A stretch of DNA of 64,000 bases from Nymphaea colorata (Eukaryota > Streptophyta > Magnoliopsida > Nymphaeales > Nymphaeaceae): positions 5,287,224 through 5,351,223 of the forward strand of contig NC_045141.1 in the NCBI RefSeq assembly GCF_008831285.2, read 5' to 3'. Positions 20,166 to 64,000 of this stretch are shown in pieces; within the stretch, counting starts at the first letter, position 1, and every line of letters starts with the position of its first letter. The position numbers were made by a program, and so were the translations under genes. The notes below the pieces were generated by a model. That model saw only the letters and a program-made list of their open reading frames with translations. It made no database searches and had not been told where the DNA came from.

Positions 20166-22690
20166 CTGGTTCAATGTATCTGGCTGTTCCAAGAGTGGAT
20201 GTAAGAGTAGAAGAACTCACACCATTTAGAACCTTTGCAATGTCAAAATCACTGAGGTATGCTGTCATGTTCTCTTCTATAAGCACCATTACTTGGCTTT
20301 AGATCACAATGAACTATAGTCTTAGAGCATAAGCCACATCAATCATGACATCCAATCTCTGAAAGAGTTTCAAATGATGGCCACCTGAATGTAGACAGAC
20401 TTCTAGGGTCGCAAGTGGCATGTATTGGAGAGCCTTGAAATCTCTTTTAGAGCAAGATGTAATGACTTTCAGTGCCTGATTTGGCACATGACAATGCCCT
20501 CGATGTCAAAACTTTAAGATGCTCCCTCAAATGACAAATTAAGAACCTTAACAGCCACTGTCATTCCATCTGCTAGAATTCCCTTGTACACTGAACCAAA
20601 GCTTCCATTCCCAAGAAAATTTGCATTACTGAAGTTGCTGGTTGCATGCAATAGTTTTCTTTGCAAAATCACTGGAAGTGTAATTCCTCGTAATATTTCA
20701 ATGTCATCAGGATGTTTCAACAATATCCTCTTTCTATAGCATGAAATACCAATGAATGTGCAAACAATGACCGAAAGTGCTGAGCCTCCAAGTGTGCAAG
20801 CAGCAATGACTCTAGCTGCATTGCTCTGGAATTTGGGAGCTCCACATAGTGCATTGTTCCCTAGGAATGACTCAGCAGAAAGGTTTGCAAACTTTCCACC
20901 ACTTGGAATCTCTCCTTCCAATAGATTGAAGGATAAGTCCAAGACCTTGATGTGTCGAAGTTTTTCCCATGATTTTGGTATCTCACCCAAAAGCTTGTTG
21001 TGGGAAAGGTCAATAGCTTCAACGTTTACCATGTGATCAAGTTGTTGACGAATGTGACCATCAAATGTGTTATGAGAGAGGTTCAAATGCTCTAGCATTT
21101 GAAGCTTTGATAATGATGTAGGCAACTCTCAACTCAACTTGTTTTGAGATATCCATGTTGACCATCATGGCTAAATTTCCGAGATTTAGAGGGAGGTGAC
21201 CAGTGAAAGAGTTGTCTTGCAAGTATAGCTCCAACAATTCATTCAACTCACAAACACCAGACGGTAGTGTTGTTGACAAATTCTTTGAACTTAGATCCAG
21301 CGCTTGCAACCTAGTGAGATTAGAGCTTAAAATAGAGCCAATTATCATGTTGTGTTTAATAGAAAAAACATACATGCTGACCAACTGGTAACGTTAGTCT
21401 GGAATTGGACCTTCTAATGCATTGCCAAAAAGGCCTAACCCCTATAACCTGTTCATTGATCCTATATTTGATCGAATGATCCCTTTTCTTTTGTTGAATC
21501 TAAAATCTAAGACAATTAACTTGGTCAAGTTGGCTAAGGTCAATGGGATAGTACCTTCAATCAGATTAGAGGAAAGGTAAAGTCTCCACAAGGTGGTTGT
21601 CAGGTTGTGTGGCAGAACAACTTCCTCTAGCAGTCGACAGTAGGTGAAGGATGTGAGAATGGAGAGCTCATGATTGTCAGGGAAATTGGTCAACATATTG
21701 TGACAGACTACCTAATTCTAATGGTATCAGACCACTAAATTTATTGTTGTCTGCAGTAAAAACTCTAAGACTTGTAGCATTAGAAAGAGAAGGCGGGAGA
21801 GGGCCATCAAAATTGTTTTCACCCATATAGAGTTGTTGGAGATTGGGCAGGAATTGGTTATATCGTGCTAACAGTGAGCTCTGTTAGTTGATTGGCCGCG
21901 AAACTCAAACCCTGAAGAGCGGATAGGTTAAACAAGCTCTTAGGCAGTGTACCAGTGAGATTGTTCATTTCCATGTTAAAGCCCATCAAGTGGGTTAGGC
22001 TTCCCAACTCATGAGGAAATTTCCCCTATAGCTGATTTTGGGCAATACTAAACCACTCCAATTCTGTGAGATTAGCCAAAGCAACTGGAATGGTGCTGGT
22101 GAGCCTATTATCACCAATGTGTAAGCGCTTGAGTTCTAACAAACAGCTTAGACACTTTGGGATGCTTCCATAGAATTGGTTATATCGTGCTAACAGTATT
22201 TGGAGAGCTCGACAATGGCTCAGTGCTTGTGGAATCAACCCCTCAAAATTGTTTTTTCTTATAGAAATATTTTTTTACAGAGGGAGACTACTAAAATCAA
22301 TGAGAAGGTGACCATGGAAACTGTCATTCGAGAGATGAAGAAGCTGTAAGAAGGAGAGATTGCTGATGTATGGGGAGATTCAGAGCCATGTTAAAGCCCA
22401 TCAAGTGCCTTTCCGAAGAGATTCAGAGCAACTACCCTTTGTGAACCACGACTGCAAGAAACTTCATTCCAGTCACATAAAGAGATGTTGGAATTCCAAT
22501 TTGATAACACGTTATAAGGGTCTTTAGTGACAAGGGATTTGAAAGACAGCAATGTGAATTGATAAGTCACGTCGCTCAGAAAAACAAGGGCAGAGGGCAC
22601 ATCCCCTTGGCCGAGAACCAGAATTAAGGTGAAGGAGGACAAACACAAAAGAAAGACGAGCGGCTGAGGTGACCAACTGGTGGTGGCCAT
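20166..22690 (-). pseudogene. LRR receptor kinase pseudogene (LRR-XII, FLS2/EFR/Xa21 class), exon 1
   Basis: ATG at 22,690 (MATTSWSPQPL) starts a signal-like hydrophobic stretch (LVFLLCLSSFTLILVLGQG) and an LRRNT_2 cap ('LSFKSLVTKDP', 'NISLCDWNEVSCS', 'RVVALNL'). Degenerate LRRs follow in several frames ('SIPKCLSCLLELKRLHIGDN' at about 22,100; 'LGEIPKSWEKLRHIKVLDLS' at about 20,950). Then come a transmembrane stretch ('VIAACTLGGSALSVIVCTFIG'-like), a glycine loop GNGSFGSVYKG and VAVKVL. Further on, 'IVHCDLKPSN' (the non-RD form) and 'YLSDFDIAKVL' are out of frame with each other; the DFG aspartate-phenylalanine-glycine is DFD. Exon 1 ends at GTARYIEPG with a good donor CCAG|GTACAT at 20,166, about where this family places its kinase intron. 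Several frameshifts and stops make it a pseudogene. The expected second exon is absent downstream. Confidence 0.85.
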
Positions 22691-25594
22691 GCCTGTCCAA
22701 TTTGTTATGCAGAACATGCATGAGCAGGAATTCAAGGTCGTCCATTTATGTATAGATTCTCTTCTAGAAAATTTGTCCTTTTGTTTTATATTCTTCAATT
22801 CATTTTTTTCTGAAAGGAAATTTGGATTTTTAATTTTTTTCTTCATCCAAAGATGCAATAATATTCAAAAGTCAGGTTGAGACCTAAGGCTTATCTCGGA
22901 TCCAAATATAGGATTAAGTAGAATGTCCTACCAAAGACCTCCAAAGAATTGACTAATATTGAGTGAGTCAGCCGCATTTATCGCTGAGCTACTCCAACCT
23001 GCATCTTGAATACCAAAGGCTTCAATGAGTCAATCTAAGTAAATGGACTGTGCAGCGCATAGCCAGTACACTCGTCAGGCTTTGAATCTCCTACTGAATC
23101 TTGTGAGGTCCCCATCAAAAATTTGCCAAGAATTGACTCAACTATCAGGGCATCTTGAATAATGTAGAATGGTTCAAGATAGGACAGGGAATGCTTGACG
23201 TGTATTTACTCCATATTTGGTGGCAGTTAGTAGGAAGGCCCAAAAAACTTTAATCACTCAACTACTAGCAAAAATACCATTCTGAGGGGGGCGGCAATTT
23301 ATCAATTAATGTTCTAGTCCATCAACCAGGCCAACTATAGGGAAATGTTTAAAGTAGCATATTTGTGCACCACACGCTGTAGACCGATATCTCATTTTCC
23401 TTCTGGTTGTCGCATTTGATTAGGTAGTATTTGATAGCCTCCGTTTCAAGTTTGCATTGTAGGATCTTAAGTCTAAACAAACTAAGGATCTTAGTAATGT
23501 GGATCTTATATCATGTAAAAAACTATGAATTTAAAGTAGGATGAGGGGTGTTCAAGCCAAAATTCATATATTTGAAATCTTGGTGATCTCAGGTCACTGT
23601 GGGTCTCAAATTTGCAGTGAAACACACACACCCTTAGTTCCAACGACATTTAATGTGAGGAACAATAAGCATAGTTCTATCTGATCAAGGGACAAGTTAT
23701 CATAGTAAAAATTAAGTTCTTCCCCCTTTAATTTATACATACTTCCACATCCCAAAGCTTTTCCAGTAAGATGGTAAGAACTTCTTTGTATCTATATATA
23801 TGTATGTGTATGTTGTGTGTAGTGCCTAGCTGTCCATAACCAAAAAGGTAACAACAAATTGCGTTTAGTCGTTGTAAATTTCTTCCCAAATCTACACATA
23901 TTTTATTGATAATGGGCACTACATGCCCTATATTAATTCAAAAGAAGTCTATTTTTCAGTTTTTTATTTATTTAAATAACATGCCAATTACAAGCCGAGT
24001 GAGTAGCACTGACCAATGCAATTTGTACAGTTGATACAATTAGTCTGTAGGATCGGCTGATTTCTAGACTAACATTAATATAACAGGTTTGAAGATCTTT
24101 TGCTGCATTAGTTCTTGTCTGGATCTTGTCCTCCTTGTCAAGCTTGCCCTGTTTAATTAGCATGCATTACCTGTTTGGTTGCCCTTGTTATGCAGGTTGA
24201 GTTCCCTTATACTTGACGGTATCCAACTAAAAAGTAGATATGCAGCCAAGAGAATATATTCAAAACCTGACCAGTCTTCAATATTGCTTATTTGGCATAG
24301 TTTTGGCAGCTAACAAGCGCCATCAATCTGGATTATTGCATAAATGAACACTACTGACTTCCTTAAGCTTCACATTTCTATGGTGAAAGATCACACTAAA
24401 CTTGCATTTCGACTGCACTCAGATGTCAATTTTTGGCATTGCTCTTCTTATTTTGAAATTCCATTTAAATGAATGTAATGCTCCCAACATTTTTTATAAC
24501 TCAATTTCGTGTGGTTTTAGAAATGGAAGATTTGGAGTGCCTAAAACCGTGTTTCCTCATTCCTACCAAAGTAGTTGTTCATGAGTTGGTACAAAAACTA
24601 TATGGACCCGGTCCCTTCCTTTCCATTGTTAGTTAATTATTTCAACTCAGGTACATTGGTCCAAAGAATTATCTATGCCGAGTTCTTGTTGAACCGAGCA
24701 GCTCATGATTTGACTTGATTTAGTCTGTGTCAAGCTTGTGTAATTAGTTTGAGTTTAATGAGTTATTGAAATAACCTCCATTAAATAGCATTTGGCCCAA
24801 GTTAAAATCAAGCGTTGATATTATCTGGCAGTGTTTAATTTGGCACTGTCATTTATTGCTTACTTATCATTTTAATTAGCTGTTCTTCTTTTACAAATTT
24901 CTTGTTGAAGCTTACAATTCACCTCGTGATAGGCTCAATGTCTTGCCTCTTGCCTTAAATGCCTTTAACAGCCAATTAAAGTTGTTGGCTTTCTGTTTTT
25001 TTTTAATGCTGAAAAGATGGGAGAAAAGTGTCCAAACATTTCATAGTTGGGTGACCGGGAGGAGTATTTCATCCTACCATCTAACGACCTTACCATGAGG
25101 CTACACATAGTGAAATGTATAAGAATTTTACAAAAATATGTTCATGCTTTGATGAATGGCAAAAACATGCTACTGTTCTCAATTATGTTCGCTGCAACGG
25201 TCGAGGCAGGGCTGGTAGGACTCTAGTCTCCATTTCGAACTCCTATGGCGTCGACTCTTGTGGTGCAAAAAGTGACACCAACATACAAGTTGAAGCCTAA
25301 AGCACCAGAAAAGCAGTCCTGGACCCCTTTTGCTCTGGTCTTCACTCAACAAGTGGGAATAGTCTCCCGATCTCCCGAAACAAGCCGTTAGTTGAAAGTG
25401 TATTTTTCGTAATTTCATCAAAAGTCTAAAGTTGTTTTTGTAAAAGCTTCATTCCATTGCTTTTAAGGCACCATGTCTAAGCTGAAGATGTTGTGGGTCA
25501 ATACATGAAAGTGTATAGGATCAAGTTCAAGCTAAAACCTAAAGGGAATATTCAAATCAAGGTTTTGGCTCAAATTATTATTCTTAATTAAGTG

Positions 25595-27749: not shown

Positions 27750-30700
27750 TTGATTAATCTATATGCTTGCATTCATTATTGATTGATTTATTTAATTGAA
27801 ATCACAAGTTTGTATGAAAATGAATGAGATTCAAGTAATTCATTAAGTGATTCATACAAACTTGTTATTTCAATTCACTAAATCAATCAATATGGATGTG
27901 ACAACAAGTTAAGCACATTTAATTAATTATGCATGATCAAATGAATAACTTAAATCTTACTCGCATTGATACGAACTTGTGATTTAAATCCTTTAAATCG
28001 TTCACTATAAATGTGACAAGTTCAACTCATTGGACTAACTACAAGGGATAAAAGTAATGCATTGATCCGATTTGTCTTCATATGAACTTGTGATTACAAT
28101 CATTGAAATCTTTCATTATAGATATAATAACAAGAGAAACACATTAGGTTAATTATAGGGTAAAAGATGAATCACTCGAATGTCATTCATTTTCTTACAA
28201 AGTTGTGATTTCAATACACAAATTCATTTAATATGGATGTAATCACAAGTTAAGCACATTCAATTAAGTACGCGTAATCAAATGAATAACTTAAACACCA
28301 CTCGTATTGTTACAAACTTGTCATTTCAATCACTTAGATCATTCACTATAGATATAACTATAAGCTAATGCATAGATCTCAATTATATCCATATAAACTT
28401 CTGATTTTAATCATTTAAATCATTCATTAAAGATGTAACAACGAGTGAAATACTTTAGATAAGCTATAACATATTAAATGAATTATTTGAATCTAATTTA
28501 TTGTCATACAAACTTACGATTTCAATCCACTAAATCATTCAATACGGATGTAACAACAAGTTACGCACATTTAATTATAAATGCATGATCAAACGAATCA
28601 CTTAAATCATTAATATTGACACGAACTTGTGATTTCAATTTTTTAGATCGTTCACTATAAATGTAACATTAAGTTCAACTTATTGGACTAACTGCAAAGG
28701 ATCAAAGTAATGCGATCCCATTTATATCCGTATGAACTTGTGATTTCAATCATTTAAATTGTTCATTATAAATGTAATAACAAGTGAAACACATTAGGTT
28801 AACTATAAGACACCAAATTAATCACCCGAATCTCATTCATTTTGATACAAACTTGTGATTTGATATACTAAATCATTTAATATAGACGTAACAACAAGTT
28901 AAACACATTCAATTAAGTATGTGTGATCAAATGAATCACTTAAATCTCACTTGTATTGGTACGAACTTGTGATTTCAACCCTTTAGATCATTGACTATAG
29001 AAGTAACAACAAGTTCAACTCTTTGGATTAACTACAAGGGACCAAAGTAACGCATAGATCCCATTTGTATCCATATGAACTTGTGATCTGAATCATTTAA
29101 ATCATTCATTATAGATGTAATAACAAGAAAAACACATTAGGTTAGCTATAGGGGACTAATTAAATGACCTGAATCTCATTCATTTCCACATGAACTTGTG
29201 ATTCCAAACTACTAAATCAATGAATATGTATGTAACAACAAGTTAAGCACATTCAGTTACATAAAAGTGATCAAATGAATCACATAAATTCCACTCATAT
29301 TGATACGAACTTGTGGTTTCAATCTCTTAGATTGTTCATTGTAGATGTAACAACTAGTTCAACTCATTGGACTACCTACAAAGGATCAAAGTAATCCATA
29401 GATACCGTTTATATCCAAATAAAGTTGTGATTTCAATAATTTAAATCATTCATTATAGATGTAATAACAAGTGAAATACATTAGATAAACTATAACATAT
29501 TAAACGAATTACTTGAATCTAATTTATTTTCATACAAGCTTATGATTTCATTCCACTAAATCATTTCAATCCTTTAGATTGTTCACTATAGAAGTAACAA
29601 CAAATTCAACTCATCGGACTAACTACATTCGTTCAAAGTAATGCATAGATTCCATTTGTATCCATATGAACTTGTGATTTCAATTATTTAAATCATTCAT
29701 TATAGATGTAATAACAAGTGAAGTACATTATATTAAGTATAAGGGACCATTTTAATGACTTGACTCTCATTCATTTCCAAACAAACTTCTTATTTCAAAC
29801 CACTAAGTCATTCTATACGTATGTAACAACAAGCTAAGCACATTCAATTAAATACAAGTGATCAAATATGTGTAATAACAAGTGAAAATGAATCAGTTAA
29901 TCTCTCAATTAAATATAAGTGATCAAATATATGTAATAACAAGTGAAACACAATAGGTTACCTATAAGACACCAAATGAATCACTCAAATCTCTTTAATT
30001 TTCATACAAACTTGTGATTTCAATCTACTAAATCATTTAATATAGACGTAACAAGAAGTTAAGCACATTCAATTAAGTATGCTTGATCAAATGAATCACT
30101 TAAATCTCACTCGTATTGATACGAACTTGTAATTTCAATTCATTAGATCGTTCACTATAGATGTAACAACAAGTTCAACTTATTTAACTAACTTTAAGGA
30201 ATCAAACTAATGAATAGATCTCATTTATATCCATATAAACTTGTGAGTTTCAATCATTTAAATCATTCATCATAGATGTAATAACAAGTGAAACACTTTA
30301 GATTGACTATAAGGGATCAAATGAATTACTTGAATCTCATTCATTTTCATACAAACTTATGATTTCAATTCACTAAATCGATCAATATAGATGTAATAAC
30401 AAGTTAAACACATTCAATTAAGTATGTGTTATCATATGAATCACTTAAATCGCACTTGTATTGATACGAACATGTGATTTCAATCCTTTAGATCGTTCAC
30501 TATAGATGTAACAACAAATTCAATTCATCGGACTAACTACACGGGTTCAAAGTACTGCATATATGCCATTTGCACTCGTATGAACTTGTGATTTCAATCA
30601 TTTAAATAATTCATTATAGATGTAATAACAAGTGAAATACATTAGATTGACTATAAGGGTCCAATTGAATGACTTGACTCTCTTTCAATTCCAAACAAAC

Positions 30701-31303
30701 TTCTTATTTCAAACCACTAAGTCATTCCATATGTATGTAACAACAAGTTAAGGACATTAAATTAAATATAACTGATCAAATGAATGACTTAATCTCTCAA
30801 TTAAATATAAGTGATCAAATATATGTAATAACAAGTGTAACACATTAGGTTACCTATAAGACACCAAATGAATCACTCAAATCTCTTTCATTTTCAAACA
30901 AACTTGTGACTTCAATCTACTAAATCATTTAATATAGACATAACAACAAGTTAAACACATTCAATTAAGTATGCTTGATCAAATGAATCACTTAAATCCC
31001 ACTCGTATTGATACAAACTTGTGATTTCAATTCATTAGATCGTTCACTATAGATGTAACAACAAGTTCAACTTATTGAACTAACTACAAGGGATAAAACT
31101 AATGCATAGATCTCATTTATATCCATATAAACTTGTGAGTTTCAATCATTTAAATCATTCATCATAGATGTAATAACAAGTGAAAGACATTAGATTGACT
31201 ATAAGGGATCAGATGAATTACTTAAATCTCATTCATTTTCATGCGAACTTGTCATTTCGATTCACTAAATCAATCAATATGAATGTAACAACAAGTTAAG
31301 CAC
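27750..31303 (+). repeat. Satellite array 1, about 115-bp monomer
   Basis: About 31 monomers are anchored on 'aacttgtgatttcaatc'. Successive anchors near 28,085, 28,200, 28,315, 28,511, 28,624, 28,735 and 28,850 are mostly 111-115 bp apart, with one 81-bp step and one spacing spanning a variant copy. Three monomer types alternate: 'aagtgaaacacattaggtt', 'aagttaagcacattcaatta' and 'aagttcaactcattggacta'. This gives a trimer of about 342 bp. Monomers are diverged. Nearly all run in one direction, except a reversed one at the left edge. The array ends mid-monomer at the kinase shard. No coding potential was seen. Confidence 0.9.
27772..27894. repeat. Head-to-head monomer pair forming a hairpin
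   Basis: 'attgattgatttatttaatt' onward (27,776-27,818) is the reverse complement of 27,852-27,894 over about 43 bp, with a few mismatches and a loop of about 33 bp. It marks the only orientation switch in array 1, at its left edge. Confidence 0.75.
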
Positions 31304-42825: not shown

Positions 42826-42984
42826 CTATATCCACATAAATTGTCCAACTCAACTCAAAGATCAGAAGACAAACATGCAGCCCCTGCGAAATGAATTAGC
42901 ATAAGATTTGCAATTGGAAGGAATGCAACAGGCAAGCTTAGCATCACAAAAGGTTCTGATACACTCTTTGTTACACATATCAAT

Positions 42985-43783
42985 GGACAAAAAGAGCTGC
43001 AAATAAGCCAGATGTGGGGTGGTATGAGCAGTTGCCGGCTTTGTTTGGGATTGAAGAAGATCCCTTTTCCTTCCCTGGTCGCCCCACAAGTTCCCAGCAG
43101 CGATCGCGTGTGTGACCCAATTTCCTGCAGTGAGTACACTTAAGTTTGCTGTGATTTTTCTGTGTGTTTGAGTGGTACCTTTGTATGCCTTGATTAGTGC
43201 CCGATTGTGAAAGGCATGCCATTCTTTCTTGGCTGTCTTCTATGCAGTCCATTTTAGGAGGGAAGCTCATGACTCTTTGCCTTGACACCTCTCTCTGAAA
43301 CATTTGACAAACCGCATTGAATTTTGGCCGCGGCATAGTATTCAGGATTTGAGTCCTTGTGGCTTCATAGTCCTCACTCAATCCAACGAGGACCTTGAAG
43401 ATTTGATCTTCTTCAAAATGCTGTTTGTAAATGACTGGATCAGAGGTCGCTGGTCGATATTGGAAGAACTCATCATATAGACTCCCGAGTCTCCCAGTGC
43501 GCGGTATCTTGATATGTAAACAGATTTACTATGGATGGTTCTGTGGAGTTGAGCAGTCATGCCATAACCATGTTATTCTGTGATTCCCATTCATCATAGT
43601 TGGGTCAGTAGTGGCTGGAGCTTTGATTTTCCCATTAATATATCGTGCCTTTAGAAACCTGTGGCACTTGTTAATTCCGTATCTCTTCACAGGATTGTCC
43701 AAAAAATCTGAAAATTGGACAAAAAATACTAGACACGTCCTCAAATCCAACACCACCTTACTCGACCTCTGAATCGCCTCCAC
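42985..43783 (-). pseudogene. Ty1/copia gag relic with zinc knuckle
   Basis: Three minus-strand segments in differing frames form one Gag. First, 43,783-43,560 has 'YINGKIKAPATTDP', 'NHRITWLW', the UBN2 'G.I..P...DP....W...N..V..Wi' pattern. Second, 43,560-43,380 has a hydrophilic middle with 'VYMMSSSNIDQRPLIQSFTNS'-like helices. Third, 43,381-42,985 has 'SEDYEATRTQILNTMPRPKF', the family's 'L...Y..iR.qIL...PlPs', and a CX2CX4HX4C knuckle CTHCRKLGHTRDRCW. Frameshifts separate the parts and no protease or reverse transcriptase follows. Clear copia Gag, not functional. Confidence 0.8.
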
Positions 43784-48648: not shown

Positions 48649-48654
48649 GATTGG

Positions 48655-49640
48655 TTTGCTAGTTTATATAGAGCTGCATCCGAGTGTGCATTGCGTGTCT
48701 ATAATTGTTAGAGAATTTTAATTAGGTTCAATCTCTTAAAATATGGTGTTTGAGTAAGCTATAAATGTTTAATGCTTTTTCCTTTGTATATAAATAGAAA
48801 GCATTAAACTATGACACTTGCCCAAGCCATAATTATTTGGTACTTTTATTTTATAGATAGAATGCATTCTTTCTTCAAGTTTTTGATATGCATTTTAATC
48901 CGACACTGATTAGCTAATGTTCACCACTTAAAACCACTTTTATTAAAGACCATGTTTATTTTTTACAAGTATTTGAGTAATTGCACCCATTCACCTCTAA
49001 GTGGTGCAACTTGCTGTTTCAACAATATTATGAACATGGTTTGCTAGCGTACAAAGACCAGCATCCAAGTGCATATTCTGTGTCTATAATGGTTAAAGAA
49101 TTTTAATAAGGTTCAATCTCTTAAAAATATGGTATTTGCGTAAGCTATAAATGTTTGATGCTTTTTTCTTTCCACATAAATAGAATACATTAACCTATGT
49201 CACTTCTCTAAGCCATAATTATTTTGTACTTTTATTTTATTTGCATATAGATAGAATGCATTCTTTATTCACGTTTTTTATATGCATTATAATCCAACAC
49301 TTATTAGCTAATGTTCGCCACTTAAAACCATTTTTATCAAAGACCATGTTTATTTTTTACACGTTTTTGAGTAAATGCACCCCTTCACCTTTACGTGGTG
49401 CAAATTTCCATTTCAACAAATGCATTCTTTCTTCATGTTTTTGATATGCACTACAATCCGACACTTATTAGCTAGTGTTTGCCACTTAAAACCATTTTTA
49501 TCAAAGACCATGTTTATTTTTTACACGTATTTGAGTAATTGCACCCCTTCACCTTTAAGTGGTGGCAACTTGTCGTTTCAACAATATTATGAACATGGTT
49601 CGCTAGCTTATAGAGAGCCACAATCGAGTGCACATTGCAT
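48655..49640. repeat. Tandem repeats directly 5' of the terpene synthase
   Basis: A unit of about 385 bp starts at 'tttgctagtttatatagag' (48,655), repeats at 49,040 ('tttgctagcgtac') and restarts at about 49,600 ('ttcgctagcttatag'). Within it, a 175-bp sub-block ('atgcattcttt.ttca.gttt', 'caaagaccatgtttatttttt', 'gtggtgcaa') is present three times (from about 48,864, 49,256 and 49,422). Copies differ at perhaps one base in ten. The repeat starts within 10 bp of the TPS start codon and covers its promoter region. Confidence 0.85.
48663..48670 (-). promoter_or_regulatory. TATA-like motif before the TPS start
   Basis: Minus-strand TATATAAA lies only about 15 bases upstream of the ATG at 48,648. 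That is too close for a normal leader, so it is either incidental or the annotated ATG is not the one that was used. Confidence 0.25.
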
Positions 49641-50066
49641 GTCTATAATGGTTAGAGAATTTCAATGACAAGTAACATCTTACATTATGTTGCTTACATA
49701 AGCTATAGTCGTTTGACACACTTTCTTTGAGCAAAAAAAATGCACTAAAAGATGCTGTTTGTGTAAGTTATAATTCTCTGTATAAATGTAGAATGTATTC
49801 ATTGCTTCAATGAAAATTTTAATGGGTCGGTGTCGGAAGCCAGCCCCACCAGCCGGCCCACACCAGCCGCGATGTGTTTCTGCCATTGTTCTGAGAGAAG
49901 TATGTAAGGGAAAAGAGCAAAAAGAAAAAAATGATGAAAACATGTGGCAGTCCCAACTATCTTTCAGGCATTTTTCACAAAAAGAAACCATTAACCTCAC
50001 TACTTGTTAAAGCTGCCAAAGGAGAAAGAAAGGAAGGAAGGCCAAAGCTACCCCTTCAACCACAAT
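49641..50066. other. Spacer, nothing recognised
   Basis: A GC-rich patch at 49,825-49,880 ('gccccaccagccggcccacac') is the only departure from the AT-rich background. A 106-codon minus-strand frame (49,680-50,000) has no domain signal. Confidence 0.4.
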
Positions 50067-50447
50067 TAGGGATGTCAATGGATATAGTCAACTTGGATTT
50101 ACCTTTAACCATATCTAAATCCAAATCTGGAATCCTATTTCGCAAACAGAATTTGATTTGAATATAATTTTCATATTCATATCTGAATAAAAAAATTTTG
50201 AACTGAATTTGACCTATTTTCAAAATGTAAGAACATTAGATATAGGATATTTGCTTAATAACAAATCTGATTCAAATCCATATCCAAATCCAACCGGATG
50301 TTTATTTATATGCGAAAATGTGATTGGAACCCAATTACTAAAGCTGAATTCAATCCTACTTTTTAATAGGATATGTTTTTCTTTTTCATATTCTTCGTAA
50401 TAGATCGATTAGATTTTCTATCCAAAGCAGACATATAGGCATCCCTA
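50067..50447. mobile_element. GATTC-family hAT-like element, second full copy
   Basis: The left end TAGGGATGTCAATGGATATAG pairs with the complement of the right end, TAGGGATGCCTATATGTC. The interior has 'tttcaaaatgtaagaacatt' and 'aaatccaaccggatgttt' as in the other members. No clear 8-bp flanking repeat is visible. Confidence 0.65.
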
Positions 50448-53400
50448 TGCGCAACTATGGAGGCCAGTGGTTTGGATTCTGGGAGGACATGGGATTCAGA
50501 TGTAGGCTCTACTTTTCAAAACTGAATTTGGATCCAAGAAGTATATGATCCCAAATATAGACATAATCAGGTTGCATCTCCGTAACACAAAGTTGACTCG
50601 GGCCTGAATATGGCATAAAACATAAAGGAACACAAATTTGATTAGGAATGGCACAATGCTTTTTTACTAGCTACAGTTCAAAATCAGGTCCATAATCAGA
50701 TGTGTCCAACCTTGAAAATGGTGGGGAAATTTTTTTTTTTGTAAATTTTAATTATAAAAATACGATAAAATTTTTCTTCTGTTTTTTTTCCACTTTTCAT
50801 TCTCAAAGAGCAACCCTCAGTCATGGGGACCAAAGGCTTTGACCAACAAAATTACAAAGAGAGGGAGTCTGGAGGCAGGGGGACCTGGTAGGGGCTGTAT
50901 TTCTTCTTGGATTTTTAAAAAATAAAAAAAGTTATTTATAAATTTTAAATATTTTAGTTTTTCCTCTATAAAATAAAATAAGAAAACTATATCTCTGGTT
51001 CTGTAAAAATTAGGATACTATAGTTTGGTTCCTACAACAAAAAATTCCTAGCTTCTTTTTTGAGATCTCTCAGCAACCCTCTACGTAAGGATTAAAAAGA
51101 ACTTTATGCCCTTTGTTCTATAGTTTTCACCAATTAAAAAAAAAGGAGCTTTGAAGTCTTTCCTTTTAGCCGAACAGAACAGAAACAAAGACGCTACAGG
51201 AATTATCACTTAATACCACAAGAAGTAAAATTTTGTCAAAGAAAACAAGCAGCTCATGCTGTAAAAGTCGTCACCTTCTTTTATAATGCGGCCATGAAAA
51301 AACTCATGGCCTTTCATTACACAGCAGAAAGTTTTCATTAGATTGTTACCTTTGTGTGCATACTTTGTGGTACGTCATATAAGGTTCCCAGTTGGCAGCT
51401 TGCTTTTTAATTATAACTACAGAATATTTGATCCACCAATCAGATTTCAAGAATCTTTTAAAAATTTTATAGATTTCAGCACTGGAGCATAACCATATGT
51501 CACTGGATGTATAAAATATTTATATGTATCTTAGAAAGTTTCCCTAGAAATTGAGGATAATTATTAAAAGGGGAATGAACCTGAAAATATGTAATCATTA
51601 ATGTTTGGTCTATAGTAAATAAAATTATTCTCCTATCACTGCCTTTGTGACTGCTGGATGCTTTGGATTAAATTCATTTCACAACTGTTTTTTCTTGCTT
51701 TAGTTTGTACGAATACCTTTGTCTATCATAACAAAAGTGATGTTCTCATCACTTTGTCTTTTTTACTGGTGGAATCAGGATTAGCTAATCAGGTTTTGTT
51801 GAAAAATAAGAAATACTCTAGCTATAAGCCACATATTAGACAAATAAGAGACCATAATGACTCACTGATCTCTCAACAATTTGATTTACATTCTCATTCT
51901 GAGACATTCAATAATAGCATCATGTATATTATATTCTCACTATAGCGATAATTTCTCTTATAACACTATGAAATATTTTTTAAATTATTGGTATTTGATT
52001 TTTTTATTGTTTTAAAGCAAGAAGAATGATAATGCTGAGACACAATTAAAATTTTAAAACAAATAATTTCTTAAAAAAATGAATGACTGTCTTAAAAAAA
52101 AAGAGGGGCCACTATCGATAGACTTTAGGGAGTCAAAATCATAAATTTTACACTCTTATCAAGAAAGCATCCAAAGTGAAGCTTTTCTCTATTCTTTTGC
52201 TCTAACTTCTACAAAATGAAATAAAAAAAAAAACCACTTGAAAGGAAATAGGTCAAAACACTAGTAACAAAACCTAACCCTGAGTGCGTAATTGGTCTGG
52301 GCCAACTTTGTGTGGCTCGTGCCACTTGTTCATGCCCTGTTGCTATGGTTAGAGAGACCTTTCACATCCCATTCTGAGCTCTTAGTTCTGTCAAACAGAG
52401 TTTGTTGAAATAAAACAGCTCAACTGGATTAGTATGAGTCCTGGACATCATCAGCTTTGTCTCTTCATAATTGGGATGGCCTGTCTTAAGTTTGGCAAGG
52501 TCGATTGCATTCCCTCGTGGCACGAACAAGTTGTACATCTAGTCAATGGTCAGATCATGAAACTTGGATGGGATAGAGTAAGTGTAGGTGATGTAGAAGT
52601 TTGTGGATTGGGAAGTTTTTCGGATTTATTTAACACCAATCATAGACCTTGCCAGCCTGTAGAGCACTACCTTCATCTTCTTTCTCTTTCCATTTTCGTA
52701 GAGTGAACAACAAGCCGATTTATTTCCATTTTCAAACATTTCTCTCACTTCTTTTCTTTTTCTCGACGCGAACCTTGTTCACAACTCACTTTTCCATTTT
52801 CCCCATATTATTGTGAATGAAAAAGCAAGTGATATGTGGAAAATATTATCTTGGTAGGCACCATGTTTCCAAATCAAAAGAAAACTAAAGTTAGATATGC
52901 ATGATAAGGGGCTTTGTTTGTTTGAAAAATTTACTAATGTAGATTGGATTTTCATGGTTGGGATTTCGTAATCTTGGAAATGTCAACTGCTAAAATTAAA
53001 TCTATTCAAATTTGTGGGCCAATCTTTTTTTTTCCTTTTTTTCTTTCTTTTCTACATGCAACACTAAAGTGACTGGACAAGTGGTTTTGAATTCTTTCAT
53101 GGTGAAGAATAAATATGGGAAGTTAAAATTTTTGAAAGTTTTTGCCATTGATCCACTTCTTTCTGTTCAATTACAAAAATAGGTGAGCGTAGCCCATGTG
53201 AAAAATATTGATTGATAACTAGACAGTCGATAGCTTTTATAACTATGCTTTTTGCTATTGAATTATTGACTGTTGATCACAATTTAGTCAAGATTAGTGA
53301 ATATTTGTGACGTCGCCTTAAATTCCAATTTCTGGATGTATGAACACAAGTATGGCCCATTAATAGGAAGCCAATCCTGGTGATACATCAATGTACCAGG

Positions 53401-53885
53401 GACACCCATGATAGTAAGTATCATTTGCCAAATAATCTTATTGTAAGGATTTAGGCTGGAGCAGAAGGTGGGGGACCTGAAAGGAGCCATGGCCCCTCCC
53501 CCCTCATGTTTTGGAAAAAGAAATGATACTTACATTTTAAAAAATTTTAAATTGGCCTATGTAAAAATTTAGAAAAATATTGTTTGGCCCGTGTATAATT
53601 TATGCAAATACTGTTCTGTCCTTCCTAAAAAAATTGCTCGCTTCACCCCTGGATCTCGCGGTCTACTGTTTTTTATTTCATATCCATTTCATCTCAAGTT
53701 AATGAAATTTTGAGTACCTCATGTCAGAACATCATCACAATCAATAAGAGAAGAATAACTAATAAGAAACTAGACTGACATAGAAAATATATCTCTAGAG
53801 AGAAATTCTTGCTTGTGGGTAAGAACTGCCTCCACTGTAGCTTGCATCTGACTTTGTAATTTCATAAGATAATCTTGCTTGACTT
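50448..53885. other. AT-rich stretch without a supported gene
   Basis: 50,860-50,990 resembles the 'GGCGGAGCC' MITE interior ('ctgtatttcttcttgg', 'aaaaaataaaaaaag'). A similar element with GC-rich ends lies at about 53,455-53,655. Open frames at 51,658-51,945 (95 codons) and 52,434-52,706 (90 codons) have no recognised domain or codon signal. No tRNA, rRNA or structural RNA was found. Confidence 0.4.
53455..53655. mobile_element. Degenerate MITE of the 'GGCGGAGCC' type
   Basis: A left end around 'ggctggagcagaaggtgggg' and a right end 'cgcttcacccctgg' bracket an AT-rich interior ('aaatttagaaaaatattgtt'). It is similar to the elements at 14,934 and 37,144, and the ends are imperfect. Confidence 0.35.
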
Positions 53886-56800
53886 TTATAGAAGTACTAA
53901 ACAGTGAAACACATTAGGTTAACTATAAGGGATCAATTGAATGACTTGAATTACAAACTAATGCATGAATGTGCTTAAACACGCATGTTGAATGATTTAG
54001 TGTAAAGAAATCACAAGCTTGTATGTACATAAAAGACATTTAAGTTATTTACTTGATGTATTTCAGTTAATATAACGTGTTTCGCTTGTTATTACATCTA
54101 TAACGAATGATTTAAATGGTTCAAACTAAAAGTTTGTACGAAAAAATGAGATTCACGTCATTCGTTTGATCGCTTATCATTAGCCTAATGCGTTTCACTT
54201 GTTATTACATGTACAATGATTGATTTGGTTGATTGAAATCACAATGTTCAAATGCATGCAAATGAGATCTACGCATTAGTTTGATCTCTTGTAGTCAAAC
54301 CAATGAGTTGAACTTGTAGTTACGTAAATAGTAAGGATCTAATGAATTGAAATCAGAAGTTTGTATCAATACGAGAGGGATTTAAGCGATTCATCTGAGC
54401 ACGCATATTTCATTGAATGTGATAAACTTGTTGCTACATCCACGATGACAGATTTAGTGGATTTAAATCACAAGTTTGCATGAAAATGAACAAAATTCAA
54501 GTGGTTCAATTGCTCTTTTATAGTTAATCTAATGTGTTTCACTTGTTATTACATGTATAAGTAATGATTTAAATGATTGAAATCACCAATTCATATGGAC
54601 ATAAATCTGATGTATACATTAGTTTGATGCTTGTATTTAGTCCAAACTTTTTGTTTCAATGAATTAAGTGAAAGGGGTCAAACAAAAGCATAGATCGCTC
54701 TTGTATCCATGTGAACTTGTGATTTCAATCATTTAAATCGTTCATTACACATGTAATAACAAGTAAAACACATTAGATTAAATATGAGGGAGCAAATTAA
54801 CGACTTGAATCTTATTCATTCTCATACAAACTTGTGATTTCGATTAAATAAATCATTCAAAATGGATGTATTAACAAGTTAAAAACATTCAATTAAATAT
54901 GTGTAATCAAATGAATCGCTTAAATCCCACTCGTGTTTATACGAACAACTGATTTCAATCGCTTATATCACGTACTATAGATGTAACGACAAGTTGAATT
55001 CTTTCGATTAAGTACTAGGGATGAAACTAATGCATATATTCCATTTTTAACTATATGAACTAGTGATTTCAATCATTTAAATCGTTCTTTATAGAAGTAA
55101 TAAACAGTGAAACACATTAGGTTAACTATAAGTGATCAATTGAATGACTTGAATCACAAACTAATGCATGAATGTGCTTAAACATGTATGTTGAATGATT
55201 TAGTTGAATGAAATCACAAGCTTTTATGTACATAAAAGACATTTAAGTTATTTACTTGTTATATTTCAGTTAATATAATGTGTTTCGCTTGTTTTTACAT
55301 CTATAACCAATGATTTACATGGTTCAAACTAAAAGTTTGTATGAAAAAAAGAGATTCATGTCATTCGTTTGATCGCTTATCATTAGCCTAATGCGTTTCA
55401 CTTGTTATTACATGTACAATGATTGATTTGGTTGATTGAAATCACAATGTTCAAATGCATGCAAATGGGATCTACGCATTAGTTTGATCTGTTGTAGTCA
55501 ATCCAATGAGTTGAACTTGTAGTTACATAAATAGTAAGGATCTAATGAATTGAAATCAAAAGTTTGTATCAATACGAGAGGGATTTAAGCGATTCATCTA
55601 AACACGCATATTTCATTGAATGTGATAAACTTGTTGCTACATCCACGATGACAGATTTAGTGGATTTAAATCACAAGTTTGCATGAAAATGAACAAAATT
55701 CAAGTGGTTCATTTGCTCTTTTATAGTTAATCTAATGTGTTTCACTTGTTATTACATGTAAAACTAATGGTTTAAATGATTGAAATCGCCAATTCATATG
55801 GACACAAATCTGATGTATACATTAGTTTGAAGTTTGTAGTTACTCCAAACTTTTTGTTTCATTGAATTAAGTGAAAGGGGTCAAACGAAAGCATAGATCC
55901 CTCTTGTATCCATGTGAACTTGTGATTTCAATCATTTAAATCGTTCATTACACATATAATAACAAGTAAAACACATTAGATTAAATATGGGGGAGCAAAT
56001 TAACGACTTGAATCTTATTCATTCTCATACAAACTTGTGATTTCGATCAAATAAATCATTCAAAATGGATGTATTAACAAGTTAAAAACATTCAATTAAA
56101 TATGTGTGATCAAATGAATCGCTTAAATCCCACTCGTGTTTATACGAACAACTGATTTCAATCACTTATATCGCGTATTATAGATGTAACGACAAGTTGA
56201 ATTCTTTCGATTAATTATTGGGAATGAAACTAATGCATATATTCCATTTTTAACTATATGAACTGGTGACTTCAATCATTTAAATCGTTCTTTATAGAAG
56301 TAATAAACAGTGAAACACATTAGGTTAACTATAAGTGATCAATTGAATGACTTGAATCAGAAACTAATGCCTGAATATGCTTAAACATGTATGTTGAATG
56401 ATTTAGTGGAATGAAATCACAAGCTTGTATGTTCATAAAAGACATTTAAGTTATTTACTTGTTGTATTTCAGTTAATATAATGTGTTTCGCTTGTTTTTA
56501 CATCTATAACGAATGATTTAAATGGTTCAAACTAAAAGTTTGTATGAAAAAAAGAGATTCACGTCATTCGTTTGATCGCTTATCATTAGCCTAATGAGTT
56601 TCACTTGTTATTACATGTACAATGATTGATTTGGTTGATTGAAATCACAATGTTCAAATGCATGCAAATGGGATCTACGCATTAGTTTGATCTCTTGTAG
56701 TCAATCCAATGAGTTGAACTCGTAGTTACATAAATAGTAAGGTTCTAATGAATTGAAATCACAAGTTTGTATCAATACGAGAGGGATTTAAGCGATTCAT

Positions 56801-59800
56801 CTGAGCACGCATATTTCATTGATTGTGATAAACTTGTTGCTACATCCCCGATGACAGATTTAGTGGATTTAAATCACAAGTTTGCATGAAAATGAACGAA
56901 ATTCAAGTGTTTCATTTGCTCTTTTATAGTTAATCTAATGTGTTTCACTTGTTATTACATGTATAAGTAATGGTTTAAATGATAGAAATCGCCAATTCAT
57001 ATGGACACAAATCTGATGTATACATTAGTTTGAAGTTTGTAGTTAGTCCAAACTTTTTGTTTCATTGAATTAAGTGAAAGGGGTCAAACGAAAGCATAGA
57101 TCCCTCTTGTATCCATGTGAACTTGTGATTTCAATCATTTAAATCGTTCATTACACATATAATAACAAGTAAAACACATTAGATTAAATATGGGGGAGCA
57201 AATTAACGACTTGAATCTTATTCATTCTCATACAAACTTGTGATTTCGATCAAATAAATCATTCAAAATGGATGTATTAACAAGTTAAAAACATTCAATT
57301 AAATATGTGTGATCAAATGAATCGCTTAAATCCCATTTGTGTTTATAAGAACAACTGATTTCAATCGCTTATATCGCGTACTATAGATGTAACGACAAGT
57401 TGAATTCTTTCGATTAAGTAATAGGGATGAAACTAATGCATATATTCCATTTTTAACTATATGAACTGGTGATTTCAATTATTTAAATCGTTCTTTATAG
57501 AAGTAATAAACAGTGAAACACATTAGGTTAACTATAAGTGATCAATTGAATGACTTGAATCACAAACTAATGCATGAATGTGCTTAAACATGTATGTTGA
57601 ATGATTTAGTGGAATGAAATCACAAGCTTGTATGTACATAAAAGACATTTAAGTTATTTACTTTCTGTATTTCAGTTAAATTCTTTTGATTCAGTACTAG
57701 GGATGAAACTAATGCATAGATTCCATTTTTAACTATATGAACTGGTGATTTCAATCATTTAAATCGTTCTTTATAGAAGTAATAAACATTGAAACACATT
57801 AGGTTAACTATAAGGGATCAATTGAATGACTTGAATCACAAAATAATGCGTGAATGTGCTTAAACATGCATGTTTAATGATTTAGTGGAATGAAATCACA
57901 AGCTTGTATGTACATAAAAGACATTTAAGTTATTTACTTGCTGTATTTCAGTTAATATAATGTGTTTCGCTTGTTTTTACATCTATAACGAACGATTTAA
58001 ATGGTTCAAACTAAAAGTTTGTACGAAAAAATGAGATTCAAGTCATTCGTTTGATCGCTTATCAATTGTTATTACATGTATAAGGAATGATTTAAATGAT
58101 TGAAATAACCTATTCATATGTACACAAATCTGATGTATTTGTTCGTTTGAATACGAGAACTCATTGAATTAAGTAAAAGGGGTCAAACAGCATAGATCCC
58201 ACTTGTATCCATATGAAATTGTGATTTCAATAATTTAAATCGTTCATTACACATGTAATAACAAGTGAAACACATTAGATTAAATATAAGGGAGCAAATT
58301 GACGACTTGAATCGAATTCATTCTCAGACAAACTTGTGATTTCGAACGAATAAATCATTTGAGATGGATGTATTAACAAGTTAAAAGCATTCAATTAAAT
58401 ATGTATGATCAAATGAATCGCTTAAATCCCACTCGTGTTTATACAAACAACTGATTTCAATCGCTTATATCACGTATTATAGATGTAACGACAAGTTTAT
58501 TTCTTTCGATTAAGCACTAGGGATGAAACTAACGCATAGATTCCATTTTTAACTATATGAACTGGTGATTTCAATAATTTAAATCCTTCTTTATAGAAGT
58601 AATAAACAGTGAAATACATTACGTTAACTATAAGGGATCAATTGAATGACTTGAATTACAGACTAATGCATGAATGTGCTTAACCACGCATGTTGAAATA
58701 TTTAGTGTAAAGAAATTACATGCTTGTATGAACATAAATGACATTTAAGTTATTTACTTGCTGTATTTCAGTTAATATAACGTGTTTCGCTTGTTATTAC
58801 ATCTATAACGAACGATTTAAATGGTTGAAACTAAAAGTTTGTACGAAAAAATGAGATTCATGTCATTCGTTTGATCGCTTATCATTTGCCTAATGCGTTT
58901 CACTTGTTATTACATGTACCATGATTGATTTTGTTGATTGAAATCACAAGTTCAAATGGATGCAAATCGGATCTACGCATTAGTTTGATCTCTTGTAGTC
59001 AATCCAATGAGTTCAACTTGTAGTTACATCAATAGTGAGGATCTAATGAATTGAAATCACAAGTTTGTATCAATACGAGTGGGATTTAAGCGATTCATCT
59101 GAGGACGCATATTTCATTGAATGTGATAAACTTGTTGTTACGTCCACATTGAATGATTTAGTGGATTTAAATCACAAGTTTGCATGAAAATGAACGAAAT
59201 TCAAGTGGTTCATTTTCTTTTTTATAGTTAATCTAATGTGTTTCACTTGTTATTAGTTGTATAAGTAATGATTTAAATGATTGAAATCACCAATTCATAT
59301 CGATACAAATATGATGTATACATTAGTTTGATGCTTCTAGTTAATCCAGTAAGTAGAACTTTTTGTTTCATTGAATTAAGTAAAAGGGGTCAAACAAAAG
59401 CATAGATCCCACTTATATCCATATGAACTTGTGATTTCAATCATTTACATCGTTCATTTAACATGTAATAACAAGTGAAACACATTAGATTAAATATAGG
59501 GGAGCAAATTATCGACTTGAATCTTATTCATTATCATACAAACTTGTGATTTCGATCAAATAAATCATTCAAAATTAATGTACTAACAAGTTCAAAACAT
59601 TCAATTAAATATGTGCGATGAAATGAATCGCTTAAATCCCACTCGTGTTTATACGAACAACTGATTTGAATCGCTTAGATTGCGTACTATAAATGTAAGG
59701 ACAAGTTGAATTCTTTTGATTAAGTACTAGGGATGAAACTAATGCATAGATTTCATTTTTAACTATATAAACTGGTGATTTCAATCATTTAAATTGTTCT

Positions 59801-62800
59801 TTATAGGAGCATTAAACAGTGAAACACATTAGGTTAACTATAAGGGATCAATGGAATGGCTTGAATCACAAACTAATGCGTTAATGTGCTTAAAAATGCA
59901 TATTGAATGATTTAGTGGAATGAAATCACAAGGTCGTATGTACATAAAAGACATTTAAGTTATTTACTTGTTGTATTTCAGTTAATATAGTGTGTTTTGC
60001 TTGTTTTGACATCTATAACGAATGATTTAAATGGTTCAAACTAAAAGGTTGTATGAAAAAATAAGATTCACGTCATTCGTTTGATCGCTTATTACTTGTT
60101 ATTACATGTATAAGGAATGATTTAAATGATTGAAATCACCAATTCATATGGACACAAATCTGGTGTATTTGTTCGTTTCAATACGAGAACTCATTGAATT
60201 AAGTAAAAGGGGTCAAACAAAAGCATAGATCCCACTTGTATCCATATGAACTTGTGATTTCAATCATTTAAATCGTTCATTACACATGTAATAACAAGTG
60301 AAACACATTAGATTAAATATAAAGGAGCAAATTAACGACTTGAATCTTATTCATTCTCATATAAAGTTGTAATTTCGATCAAATAAATCATTTGAGATGG
60401 ATGCATTAAAAAGGTAAAAGCATTCAATTAAATATGTGTGATAAAATGAATTGCTTAAATCCCACTCGTGTTTATACGAACAACTTATTTCAATCGCTTA
60501 GATCGCGTATTATAGATGTAACGACAAGTTTATTTCTTTAGATTAAGCACTAGGGATGAAACTCATGCATAGATTCCATTTTTGACTATATGAACTGGTG
60601 ATTTCAATCATTTAAATCCTCCTTTATAGAAGTAATAAACAGTGAAACACATTAGGTTAACTATAAGGGATCGATTGAATGACTTGAATTACAAACTAAT
60701 GCATGAATGTGCTTAAACACGCATGTTGAATTGAATTATTTTGATTAAGTACTAGGGATGAAACTAATGCATAGATTCCATTGTTAACTATATGAACTAG
60801 TGATTTCAATCATTTAAATTGTTCTTTATAGAAGTATTAAACAGTGAAACACATTAGGTTAACTATAAGGGATCAACTGAATGACTTGAATCACAAACTA
60901 ATGCGTTAATGTGCTTAAACATGCATATTGAATGATTTAGTGGAATGAAATCACAAGCTTATATGTACATAAAAGGCATTTAAGTTATTTACTTGCTGTA
61001 TTTCAGTTAATATAGTGTGTTTCGCTTGTTTTTACATCTATAACGAATGATTTAAATGGTTCAAACTAAAAGTTTGTATGAAAAAAAGAGATTCACGTCA
61101 TTCGTTTGATCGCTTATCATTAGCCTAATGCGTTTCACTTGTTATTACATGTACAATGATTGATTTGGTTGATTGAGCACTAGGGATGAAACGACAAGTT
61201 TATTTCTTTCGATTAAGCACTAGGGATGAAACTAATGCATAAATTCCATTTTTAACTACATGAACTGATGATTTCAATCATTTAAATCCTCCTTTATAGA
61301 AGTACTAAACAGTGAAACACATTAGGTAAACTATAAGGGATCAATTGAATGACTTGAATTACAAACTAATGCATGAATGTGCTTAAACACGCATGTTGAA
61401 TGATTTAGTGGAATGAAATCACAAGCTTGTATGTACATAAAAGACATTTAAGTTATTTACTTGCTGTAGTTAAATTCTTTTGATTAAGTACTAGGGATGA
61501 AACTAATGCATAGATTCCATTTTTAACTATATGAACTGGTGATTTCAATCATTTAAATCGTTCTTTATAGAAGTAATACACAGTGAAACACATTAGGTTA
61601 ACTATAAGGGATCAATTGAATGACTTGAATCATAAAATAATGCGTGAATGTGCTTAAACATGCATGTTTAATGATTTAGTGGAATGAAATCACAAGCTTG
61701 TATGTACATAAAAGACATTTAAGTTATTTACTTGCTGTATTTCAGTTAATATAATGTGTTTCACTTGTTTTGACATCTATAACGAACGATTTAAATGGTT
61801 CAAACTAAAAGTTTGTATGAAAAAATGAGATTCACGTCATTCGTTTGATCGCTTATCAATTGTTATTACATGTATAAGGAATGATTTAAATGATTGAAAT
61901 CACCTATTCATATGTACACAAATCTGATGTATTTGTTCGTTTGAATACGAGAACTCATTGAATTAAGCAAAAGGGGTCAAACAGCATAGATCTCACTTGT
62001 ATCCATATGAACTTGTGATTTCAATCATTTAAATCGTTCATTACACATGTAATAACAAGTGAAACACATTAGATTAAATATAATGGAGCAAATTAATGAC
62101 TTGAATCTTCATTCTCATACAAGCTTGTGATTTCGATCAAATAAATAATTTGAGATGGATGTATTAACAAGTTAAAAGCATTCAATTAAATATGTGTGAT
62201 CAAATGAATCGCTTAAATCCCACTCGTGTTTATACAAACAACTGATTTCAATCGCTTATATCGCGTTTTATAGATGTAACGACAAGTTTATTTCTTTCGA
62301 TTAACCACTAGGGATGAAACTAATGCATAGATTCCATTTTTAACTACATGAATTGGTGATTTCAATCATTTAAATCCTCCTTTATAGAAGTACTAAAGAG
62401 TGAAACACATTAGGTTAACTATAAGGGATCAATTAAATGACTTGAATTACAAACTAATGCATGAATGTGCTTAAACACGCATGTTGAATGATTTAGTGGA
62501 ATGAAATCACAAGCTTGTATGTACATAAAAGACATTTAAGTTATTTACTTGCTGTATTTCAGTTAAATTCTTTTGATTAAGTACTAGGGATGAAGCTAAT
62601 GCATAGATTCCATTTTTAACTATATGAACTGGTGATTTCAATCATTTAAATCGTTCTTTATAGAAGTAATAAACAGTGAAACACATTAGGTTAACTATAA
62701 GGGATCAATTGAATGACTTGAATCACAAAATAATGCGTGAATGTGCTTAAACATGCATGTTGAATGATTTAGTGGAATGAAATCACAAGCTTGTATGTAC

Positions 62801-64000
62801 ATAAAAGACATTTAAGTTATTTACTTGCTGTATTTCAGTTAATATAATGTGTTTCGCTAGTTTTTACATTTATAACGAACGATTTAAATGGTTCAAACTA
62901 AAAGTTTGTACGAAAAAATGAGATTCACGTCATTCGTATGATCGCTTATCAGTTGTTATTACATGTATAAGAAATGATTTAAAAGATTGAAATCACCTAT
63001 TCATATGGACACAAATCTGATGTATTTGTTCGTTTGAATACGAGAACTCTTTGAATTAAGTAAAAGGGGTAAAACAAAAGCATAGATCCCACTTGTATCC
63101 ATATGAACATGTGATTTCAATCATTTAAATCGTTCATTACACATGTAATAACAAGTGAAACATATTAGATTAAATATAAGGGAGCAAATTAACAACTTGA
63201 ATCTTATTCATTCTCACACAAAGTTGTAATTTTGATCAAATAAATCATTTGAGATGGATGTATTAACAAGGTAAAAGCATTCAATTAAATATGTATGATA
63301 AAATGAATCGCTTAAATCCCACTCGTGTTTATACAAACAACTGATTTCAATCGCTTAGATCGCGTATTATAGATCTAACGACAAGTTTATTTCTTTCGAT
63401 TAAGCACTAGGGATGAAACTAATGCATAGATTCCATTTTTAACTATATGAACTGGTGATTTCAATCATTTAAATCCTTCTTTATAGAAGTAATAAACAGT
63501 GAAACACATTAGGTTAACTATAAGGGATCGATTGAATGACTTGAATTACAAACTAATGCATGAATGTGCTTAAACACGCATGTTGAATTGAATTGTTTTG
63601 ATTAAGTACTAGGGATGAAACTAATGCATAGATTCCATTTTTAACTATATGAACTGGTGATTTGAATCATTTAAATCGTTCCTTATAGAAGTAATAAACA
63701 GTGAAACACATTAGGTTAACTATAAGGGATCAATTGAACGACTTGAATAACAAAATAATGCGTGAATGTGCATAAACATACATGTTGAATGATTTAGTGG
63801 AATGAAATCACAAGCTTGTATGTACATAAAAGACATTTAAGTTATTTACTTGCTGTATTTCAGTTAATATAATGTGTTTCGCTAGTTTTTACATTTATAA
63901 CGAACGATTTAAATGGTTCAAACTAAAAGTTTGTACGAAAAAATGAGATTCACGTCATTCGTATGATCGCTTATCAGTTGTTATTACATGTATAAGAAAT
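53886..64000. repeat. Satellite array 2 with 1,203-bp higher-order unit
   Basis: Same monomer family as array 1 ('aacttgtgatttcaatc', 'taataacaagtgaaacacatta', about 115 bp). The landmark 'cagtgaaacacattaggtta' falls at 53,902, 55,105, 56,308 and 57,511: three successive steps of exactly 1,203 bp. Beyond that the landmark recurs at 57,787 (variant), 58,607, 59,817, 60,640, 60,842, 61,310, 61,581, 62,398, 62,674, 63,497 and 63,709. These steps alternate between about 820 and 200-470 bp, so shortened units are present. Within a unit, monomers run reversed for about 700 bp (for example 53,950-54,650) and forward for about 490 bp (54,660-55,150). Adjacent 1,203-bp units are nearly identical. The array continues past the window edge. 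No genes. Confidence 0.92.

Follow-up and report, generated by a model that had tools for sequence, protein, structure and literature searches.

The 64,000-bp stretch of the Nymphaea colorata genome analysed here (the window; NC_045141.1, positions 5,287,224–5,351,223, or C4:5,287,224–5,351,223 in an assembly of 407.8 Mb and 783 contigs) carries two arrays of one satellite family with monomers of ~115 bp. An iterated 115-bp monomer profile was run over the window and gave 128 monomer matches, which fell in these two arrays. Array 1 is forward throughout except for one 60-bp fragment at its left end. Array 2, which was traced beyond the window using 15 neighbouring 10-kb stretches, is built from higher-order units that hold monomers in both orientations. 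Monomers were assigned to classes by clustering 233 of them, small letters denoting diverged relatives of a class. The features are as follows.

27,785–31,271, plus strand: array 1, of the same 115-bp family as array 2, an A-B-C trimer that repeats every 344 bp, used as the comparison array (profile, clustering).
53,888–64,000, continuing to ~70,616, no strand assigned: array 2, higher-order satellite array whose monomers alternate in orientation (profile, self-BLAST).
53,994–55,196, no strand assigned: 11-mer unit 1, 1,203 bp, reversed a7 a10 C B A c2, then forward C A B c3 a8.
54,645–54,679, plus strand: head-to-head junction, reversed-arm c2 (R-c2) into forward-arm C (F-C), 35-bp word with 431 assembly matches at ≤3 mismatches.
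55,152–55,203, plus strand: tail-to-tail junction, F-a8 into R-a7, 52-bp word with 437 assembly matches at ≤3 mismatches.
55,197–56,399, no strand assigned: 11-mer unit 2, 1,203 bp (profile, clustering).
55,197–55,862, minus strand: reversed arm of unit 2, six monomers (profile, arm alignment).
55,859–56,396, plus strand: forward arm of unit 2, five monomers, the first and last incomplete (profile, arm alignment).
56,400–57,602, no strand assigned: 11-mer unit 3, 1,203 bp (profile, clustering).
57,603–63,588, no strand assigned: irregular part of array 2, 11-mers among 8-mers and shorter units, with reversed blocks of 1, 2, 3 or 6 monomers.
63,588–64,000, no strand assigned: beginning of a 2,030-bp super-unit in which an 11-mer is joined to an 8-mer (clustering, self-BLAST).

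When 53,886–57,520 was compared with itself, identity was 96.4% at a lag of 1,203 bp and 96.0% at 2,406 bp; the best lag in 10 base shuffles of the same sequence reached only 34%. The first reversed monomers of successive units lie at 53,994, 55,197, 56,400 and 57,603, three consecutive steps of 1,203 bp. A sequence-only reading of this DNA had described landmarks recurring at 1,203 bp three times in a row in nearly identical copies, with inverted blocks inside each unit, and self-comparison of the window bears out both the period and the blocks. It had counted about six reversed and about four forward monomers per unit. The six stand, and the four are a slight undercount, as each unit is an 11-mer with five forward monomers, two of them incomplete: the first lacks ~23 bp and the last ends at model position 79. 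Copies of the unit are 96.0–96.4% alike, compared with identities of 0.75–0.83 between mirrored slots within it, the pattern of a higher-order repeat. The whole unit matches the 115-bp monomer family except for short junction pieces, and no open reading frame (ORF) of ≥120 aa was seen in it.

The interval 53,886–57,520 given in that reading describes the regular part of array 2 correctly but not its extent. The right end lies past the end of the window, at 70,586 by profile and 70,616 by self-BLAST, and units beyond 57,603 are variable, including 11-mers, 8-mers and shorter forms. From 63,588 to 70,616, an 11-mer and an 8-mer together make the 2,030-bp super-unit; shifted by 2,030 bp, the sequence is 97.6% identical to itself over 5,000 bp.

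A further array at 79,202–83,415 was at one time considered an independent, oppositely oriented array, and was rejected. The stretch 39,977–58,143 matches 97,373–79,197 at 99.24% over 18,237 bp in opposite orientation, each copy running from a contig end by a 100-N gap (contigs 39,977–79,096 and 79,197–136,849 in window numbering). Given this match, the array at 79,202–83,415 is the same locus again, on a second, overlapping contig. Probably a contig was placed in the wrong orientation in the scaffold, or a second allele was kept as an extra copy. The overlapping contig carries the same units in the same order, and 17 units on the unplaced contig C568 are 99.8% alike on average. Both contigs come from the same assembly, and they therefore support the organisation of the array without proving it.

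The trimer classes A, B and C of array 1 are present in both arms of the 11-mer, in identical trimer order. In the monomer's own direction, the slot order is c2 A B C a10 a7 in the reversed arm and C A B c3 a8 in the forward arm, so that the arms lie in mirrored register about the head-to-head joint (C-C, A-A, B-B, C-C, A-A). Each unit is accordingly a large imperfect inverted repeat, as had been claimed. Ungapped inverted arms of 282–292 nt, 77–80% complementary and 50 nt apart, were found in all three units. Gapped alignment of the whole arms gave 476–479 paired positions, with identities of 78.7, 77.5 and 76.1% in units 1, 2 and 3, and the longest exact match between arms was 18–21 bp. Long opposed related segments in each unit (here ~480-bp arms, in three units) are the first of two features by which likeness to the dyad satellites of Tribolium beetles was judged.

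The suggestion that transcripts of either strand could self-pair was examined in silico by folding 1,000 nt centred on the head-to-head joint with RNA energies, with 20 shuffles per fold. The plus strand of the 11-mer gave −420 kcal/mol (shuffle mean −199.5, z −32.2) and the minus strand −410.8 kcal/mol (shuffle mean −188, z −34.5). An equal length of array 1, plus strand only, gave −160 (shuffle mean −163.5, z +0.5), with 16 of 20 shuffles folding equally well or better. Either strand of the 11-mer is thus predicted to fold into one long hairpin, in agreement with the suggested self-pairing potential; the prediction does not imply formation in vivo. Effects of such a predicted hairpin on replication, chromatin or small RNA are possible.

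The two junctions were used as words to search the assembly. The head-to-head word gave 247 + 184 = 431 matches and the tail-to-tail word 276 + 161 = 437, both at ≤3 mismatches, and the reversed control words gave 0 in both cases. The inversion sites are therefore conserved across arrays, the second of the two features of Tribolium-type satellites. The head-to-head matches listed include at least nine large contigs (C3, C4, C6, C7, C8, C9, C12, C13 and C14) as well as unplaced contigs. Among the matches listed, sites are scattered along contigs, for example at 5.34, 5.62 and 8.64–8.73 Mb on C4 and at 10.4–10.5, 14.0 and 16.05 Mb on C13, positions to be read in the knowledge that the assembly has ordering errors. 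They bear on whether the family forms a single main block on each chromosome, as a centromeric satellite would. Nine of ten fetched array samples have complete 11-slot units with a constant slot order; the tenth (C8:2,000,001–2,008,000) has a 1,588-bp unit derived from the 11-mer, with further orientation switches. At ≤3 mismatches the head-to-head word had no match in the C14 and C8 samples, and the tail-to-tail word had none in the C13 sample. As these samples do contain arrays, 431 and 437 are floors.

Not all of the family is organised in this way. A 17-bp monomer core had 15,421 matches at ≤1 mismatch (control, 8). Calibration in nine sets gave 0.26–0.45 core matches per monomer, from which we estimate very roughly 34,000–59,000 monomers, ~1–1.6% of the assembly; like the junction counts, these figures rest on word searches. 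At 431 × 11 monomers, the 11-mers would account for 8–14% of the estimated family total, and many family members thus lie outside recognisable 11-mers. A 3-kb sample at C1:9,423,001–9,426,000 is unidirectional (26/26 monomers forward) with a period near 658 bp. The 33 monomers of a 3.5-kb sample at C2:33,792,501–33,796,000 show three irregular switches (10 reversed, 9 forward, 3 reversed, 11 forward), an arrangement unlike the 11-mer. Whole units are flipped in orientation on C240, C332, C356 and C3, and some of these flips may be assembly errors.

Trees were built on 107 columns from rows of ≥75 nt that carry major slot labels, and the extra inverted monomers of C8 were thereby dropped; trees of 269 and 102 rows were made without the monomers of the duplicated contig (79,202–83,415). 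In the 269-row tree, 19 changes suffice for the 18 slot labels (minimum 17, shuffled mean 207.5), and in the 102-row tree slots need 18 label changes. Monomers thus group by slot across chromosomes and not by array. Identity of the same slot between arrays on different contigs was 0.925–0.975, or 0.867–0.887 when C8 was one partner. We conclude that one founder unit has spread genome-wide.

The anatomy of the joints was derived from alignment to array 1, the class and overlap calls being our reading of that alignment. At the head-to-head joint, the shortened start of a C-class monomer on the reversed side runs directly into a C-class monomer at about position 24, and 3–4 nt can be assigned to either side. 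At the tail-to-tail joint, an A-class monomer continues to position 79, followed by ~13 nt of C-like filler and then, in the reversed block, by the beginning of a B-class monomer. As judged from the sequence, the joints look like products of end joining or template switching with small losses.

How the two arms came to lie opposed was approached by asking whether they resemble each other more than they resemble the rest of the family. Monomers in mirrored slots of the arms were 0.749, 0.829, 0.787, 0.768 and 0.745 identical (74.5–82.9%), while identity of arm monomers to array 1 was 0.730–0.828 (73.0–82.8%), and a comparison restricted to the window gave the same picture; the same slot on different chromosomes is mostly 92–98% identical. 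The arms are thus no closer to each other than to a unidirectional array, and a palindromic or fold-back amplification intermediate, as proposed in the sequence-only reading, is not supported. In the 102-row tree, F-a8 groups with the array-1 class a9 (support 97/88) and not with its mirror partner R-a10. We therefore favour, with a probability of about 0.6, an origin of the composite by inversion of a short stretch from a pre-existing A-B-C trimer array, followed by ordinary higher-order amplification.

In this scheme the ~115-bp satellite would first have formed A-B-C trimer arrays. Within or between arrays that had already diverged, a segment of about six monomers would then have come to lie inverted beside about five others; breakage and rejoining at 3–4 nt of shared sequence, with small losses, would have created its two joints. 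From then on the composite may have behaved like other higher-order units: unequal exchange or rolling-circle copying would have multiplied it in tandem, and it would have spread to many chromosomes while being homogenised slot by slot. The predicted hairpin would be a by-product of having two related arms in opposite orientation.

The leading alternative is that fold-back or template-switch copying of about five monomers produced an inverted duplicate, and that the palindrome was amplified and diverged later. We consider this doubtful, but several observations do speak for it or against an origin by inversion. The mirrored register about the head-to-head joint is what fold-back predicts; it decides little, since random inversion of a trimer array yields it about one time in three. 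The A-class pair (R-A, F-A) forms a weakly supported clade that excludes array 1 (88/81), and this clade recurs at 84/85 in another tree, one that includes monomers of the array at 79,202–83,415. One-clade tests of the other four mirrored pairs on the 102-row tree did not reject monophyly (p 0.331, 0.431, 0.13 and 0.447). The two joints do not fit a single loss-free inversion, and the overlap lengths at the joints hinge on guessed ancestral letters. Finally, with units on C8 diverging by up to 13%, the age of the unit may be half that of the split between the arms, which makes the argument from dating only moderate.

Copying between the arms should be visible as joint change at paired positions. 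We compared 49 units (three of them from the duplicated contig) at 392 matched and 105 mismatched arm positions. The matched positions showed 7 joint deviations, two of them compensatory, where 7.1 were expected. Joint change at the level of chance gives no sign of arm-to-arm copying at matched positions, and this, together with the grouping of F-a8 and the lack of any closeness between the arms beyond that to the unidirectional array, argues against fold-back copying and for the inversion of a piece of a trimer array.

The same data bear on a different proposal, that a hairpin or cruciform, or a double-stranded transcript, has been kept by selection for a centromere or heterochromatin function, as proposed for Tribolium. 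The very strong predicted folding of both strands (z −32.2 and −34.5) would be expected under it, and orientation switches also occur in other arrangements (the extra ones on C8, the three on C2 and the flips on C240, C332, C356 and C3). At mismatched positions, a variant in the reversed arm is often the base present in the partner (203/296 cells; 35/73 column-level states), which hints weakly at exchange between the arms or at shared ancestral variants. However, for forward-arm variants the figures are 108/251 cells and 28/71 states, matched positions show joint change at the chance level, and wobble-compatible changes favour neither strand (24 versus 19). Unidirectional arrays of the family exist (array 1 and the C1 sample), and the whole-unit flips may be assembly errors. 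Selection for the dyad is therefore an unlikely explanation of the unit.

Still less probable is an origin from a mobile element of the fold-back or inverted-repeat type, whose termini contained tandem repeats and which turned tandem. A dispersed repeat at 49,686–53,878, ~92% identical to a copy ~86 kb upstream (at about −36,534 to −32,253), stops ≤10 bp from the left edge of array 2, as such an origin might lead one to expect. However, the unit has no ORF of ≥120 aa and consists of the monomer family save for the short junction pieces, and no clear empty site was apparent when the right flank was set against the upstream copy. That the assembler made the 1,203-bp period or the orientation switches is hardly credible: a real assembly error does lie nearby, an 18.2-kb stretch being present twice in opposite orientation at contig ends, but both junctions recur identically at many places and on many contigs, and the three units in the window share their junctions within one contig.

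The sequence around array 2 has several other features. Pieces resembling leucine-rich repeat (LRR) receptor kinases flank the array, one at 20,514–22,858 (minus strand; Pfam LRR_1 and LRRNT_2) and one at 72,835–74,885 (plus strand), judged by eye from ORFs. Nested tandem duplications of ~390 and 164 bp occupy 48,652–49,716, and a 399-bp tandem duplication with 99.0% identity lies at 72,065–72,851 in window numbering. An ORF at 42,983–43,525 (minus strand) contains a zinc-knuckle-like stretch that presumably resembles a Copia-type gag; an overlapping ORF has no Pfam match.

In human alpha satellite, multi-monomer units that arose from older monomeric arrays are homogenised slot by slot and run head to tail throughout. 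The plant 11-mer resembles it in slot-wise homogenisation and, in the history favoured here, in deriving from older arrays, and differs in possessing an orientation switch. It is well supported that a plant genome contains a real, genome-wide higher-order satellite that bears a dyad, and an inverted composite can evidently undergo amplification as other higher-order units do and reach at least nine large contigs. In our searches of open-access full texts we recognised no paper on this satellite or on a plant satellite with an intra-unit dyad, which is weak evidence of absence.

Among plant satellites, Palv156 of Populus alba var. pyramidalis is described in PMC12046899 as a centromeric satellite with higher-order repeats and chromosome-specific variants. 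Like the 11-mer, it has monomers of 100–200 bp arranged in higher-order repeats. In that account, its monomers lie mainly on one strand per centromere, whereas the 11-mer switches strand twice per unit.

The orientation switch had been called unusual. It is so, but it has precedents in Tribolium beetles. According to PMC13081366, long dyads within units are uncommon, Tribolium provides the main cases, and array-scale dyads are documented only there. The same paper gives TmSat2 of Tribolium madens a 704-bp unit of seven related ~110-bp subunits with inverted segments of ~300 bp. From this description, TmSat2 and the other Tribolium macro-dyad arrays are like the plant arrays in having subunits of ~110 bp in both directions, a long dyad per unit, conserved inversion sites and array-scale inversions of whole units. 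TmSat2 differs in its beetle host, its 704-bp unit and its ~300-bp inverted segments, the beetle satellites take up a far larger share of the genome, and the likeness is one of description only. Common descent with the Tribolium satellites is unlikely, and convergence is assumed from the distance between the host groups. That the plant evolved, independently of Tribolium, a genome-wide dyad satellite with arrays that flip orientation as well, and that the dyad itself, as hairpin DNA or as a double-stranded transcript, marks or protects centromeric or pericentromeric chromatin, is an improbable extension. The closest match in scale is the major satellite of Tribolium brevicornis (1,061 bp, with inverted segments of ~470 bp), called in PMC13081366 the most prominent intra-monomer dyad reported to date. 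As it is described there, two long opposed segments of near-identical size form one complex unit, as in the 11-mer. In the plant, by comparison, each arm consists of several ~115-bp monomers one after another (~480 bp aligned), and the dyad arrays coexist with unidirectional arrays of the same monomers. With both kinds of array of one family in the same nucleus, whether the dyad makes a difference could be asked by comparing CENH3, small RNA, methylation and recombination between them.

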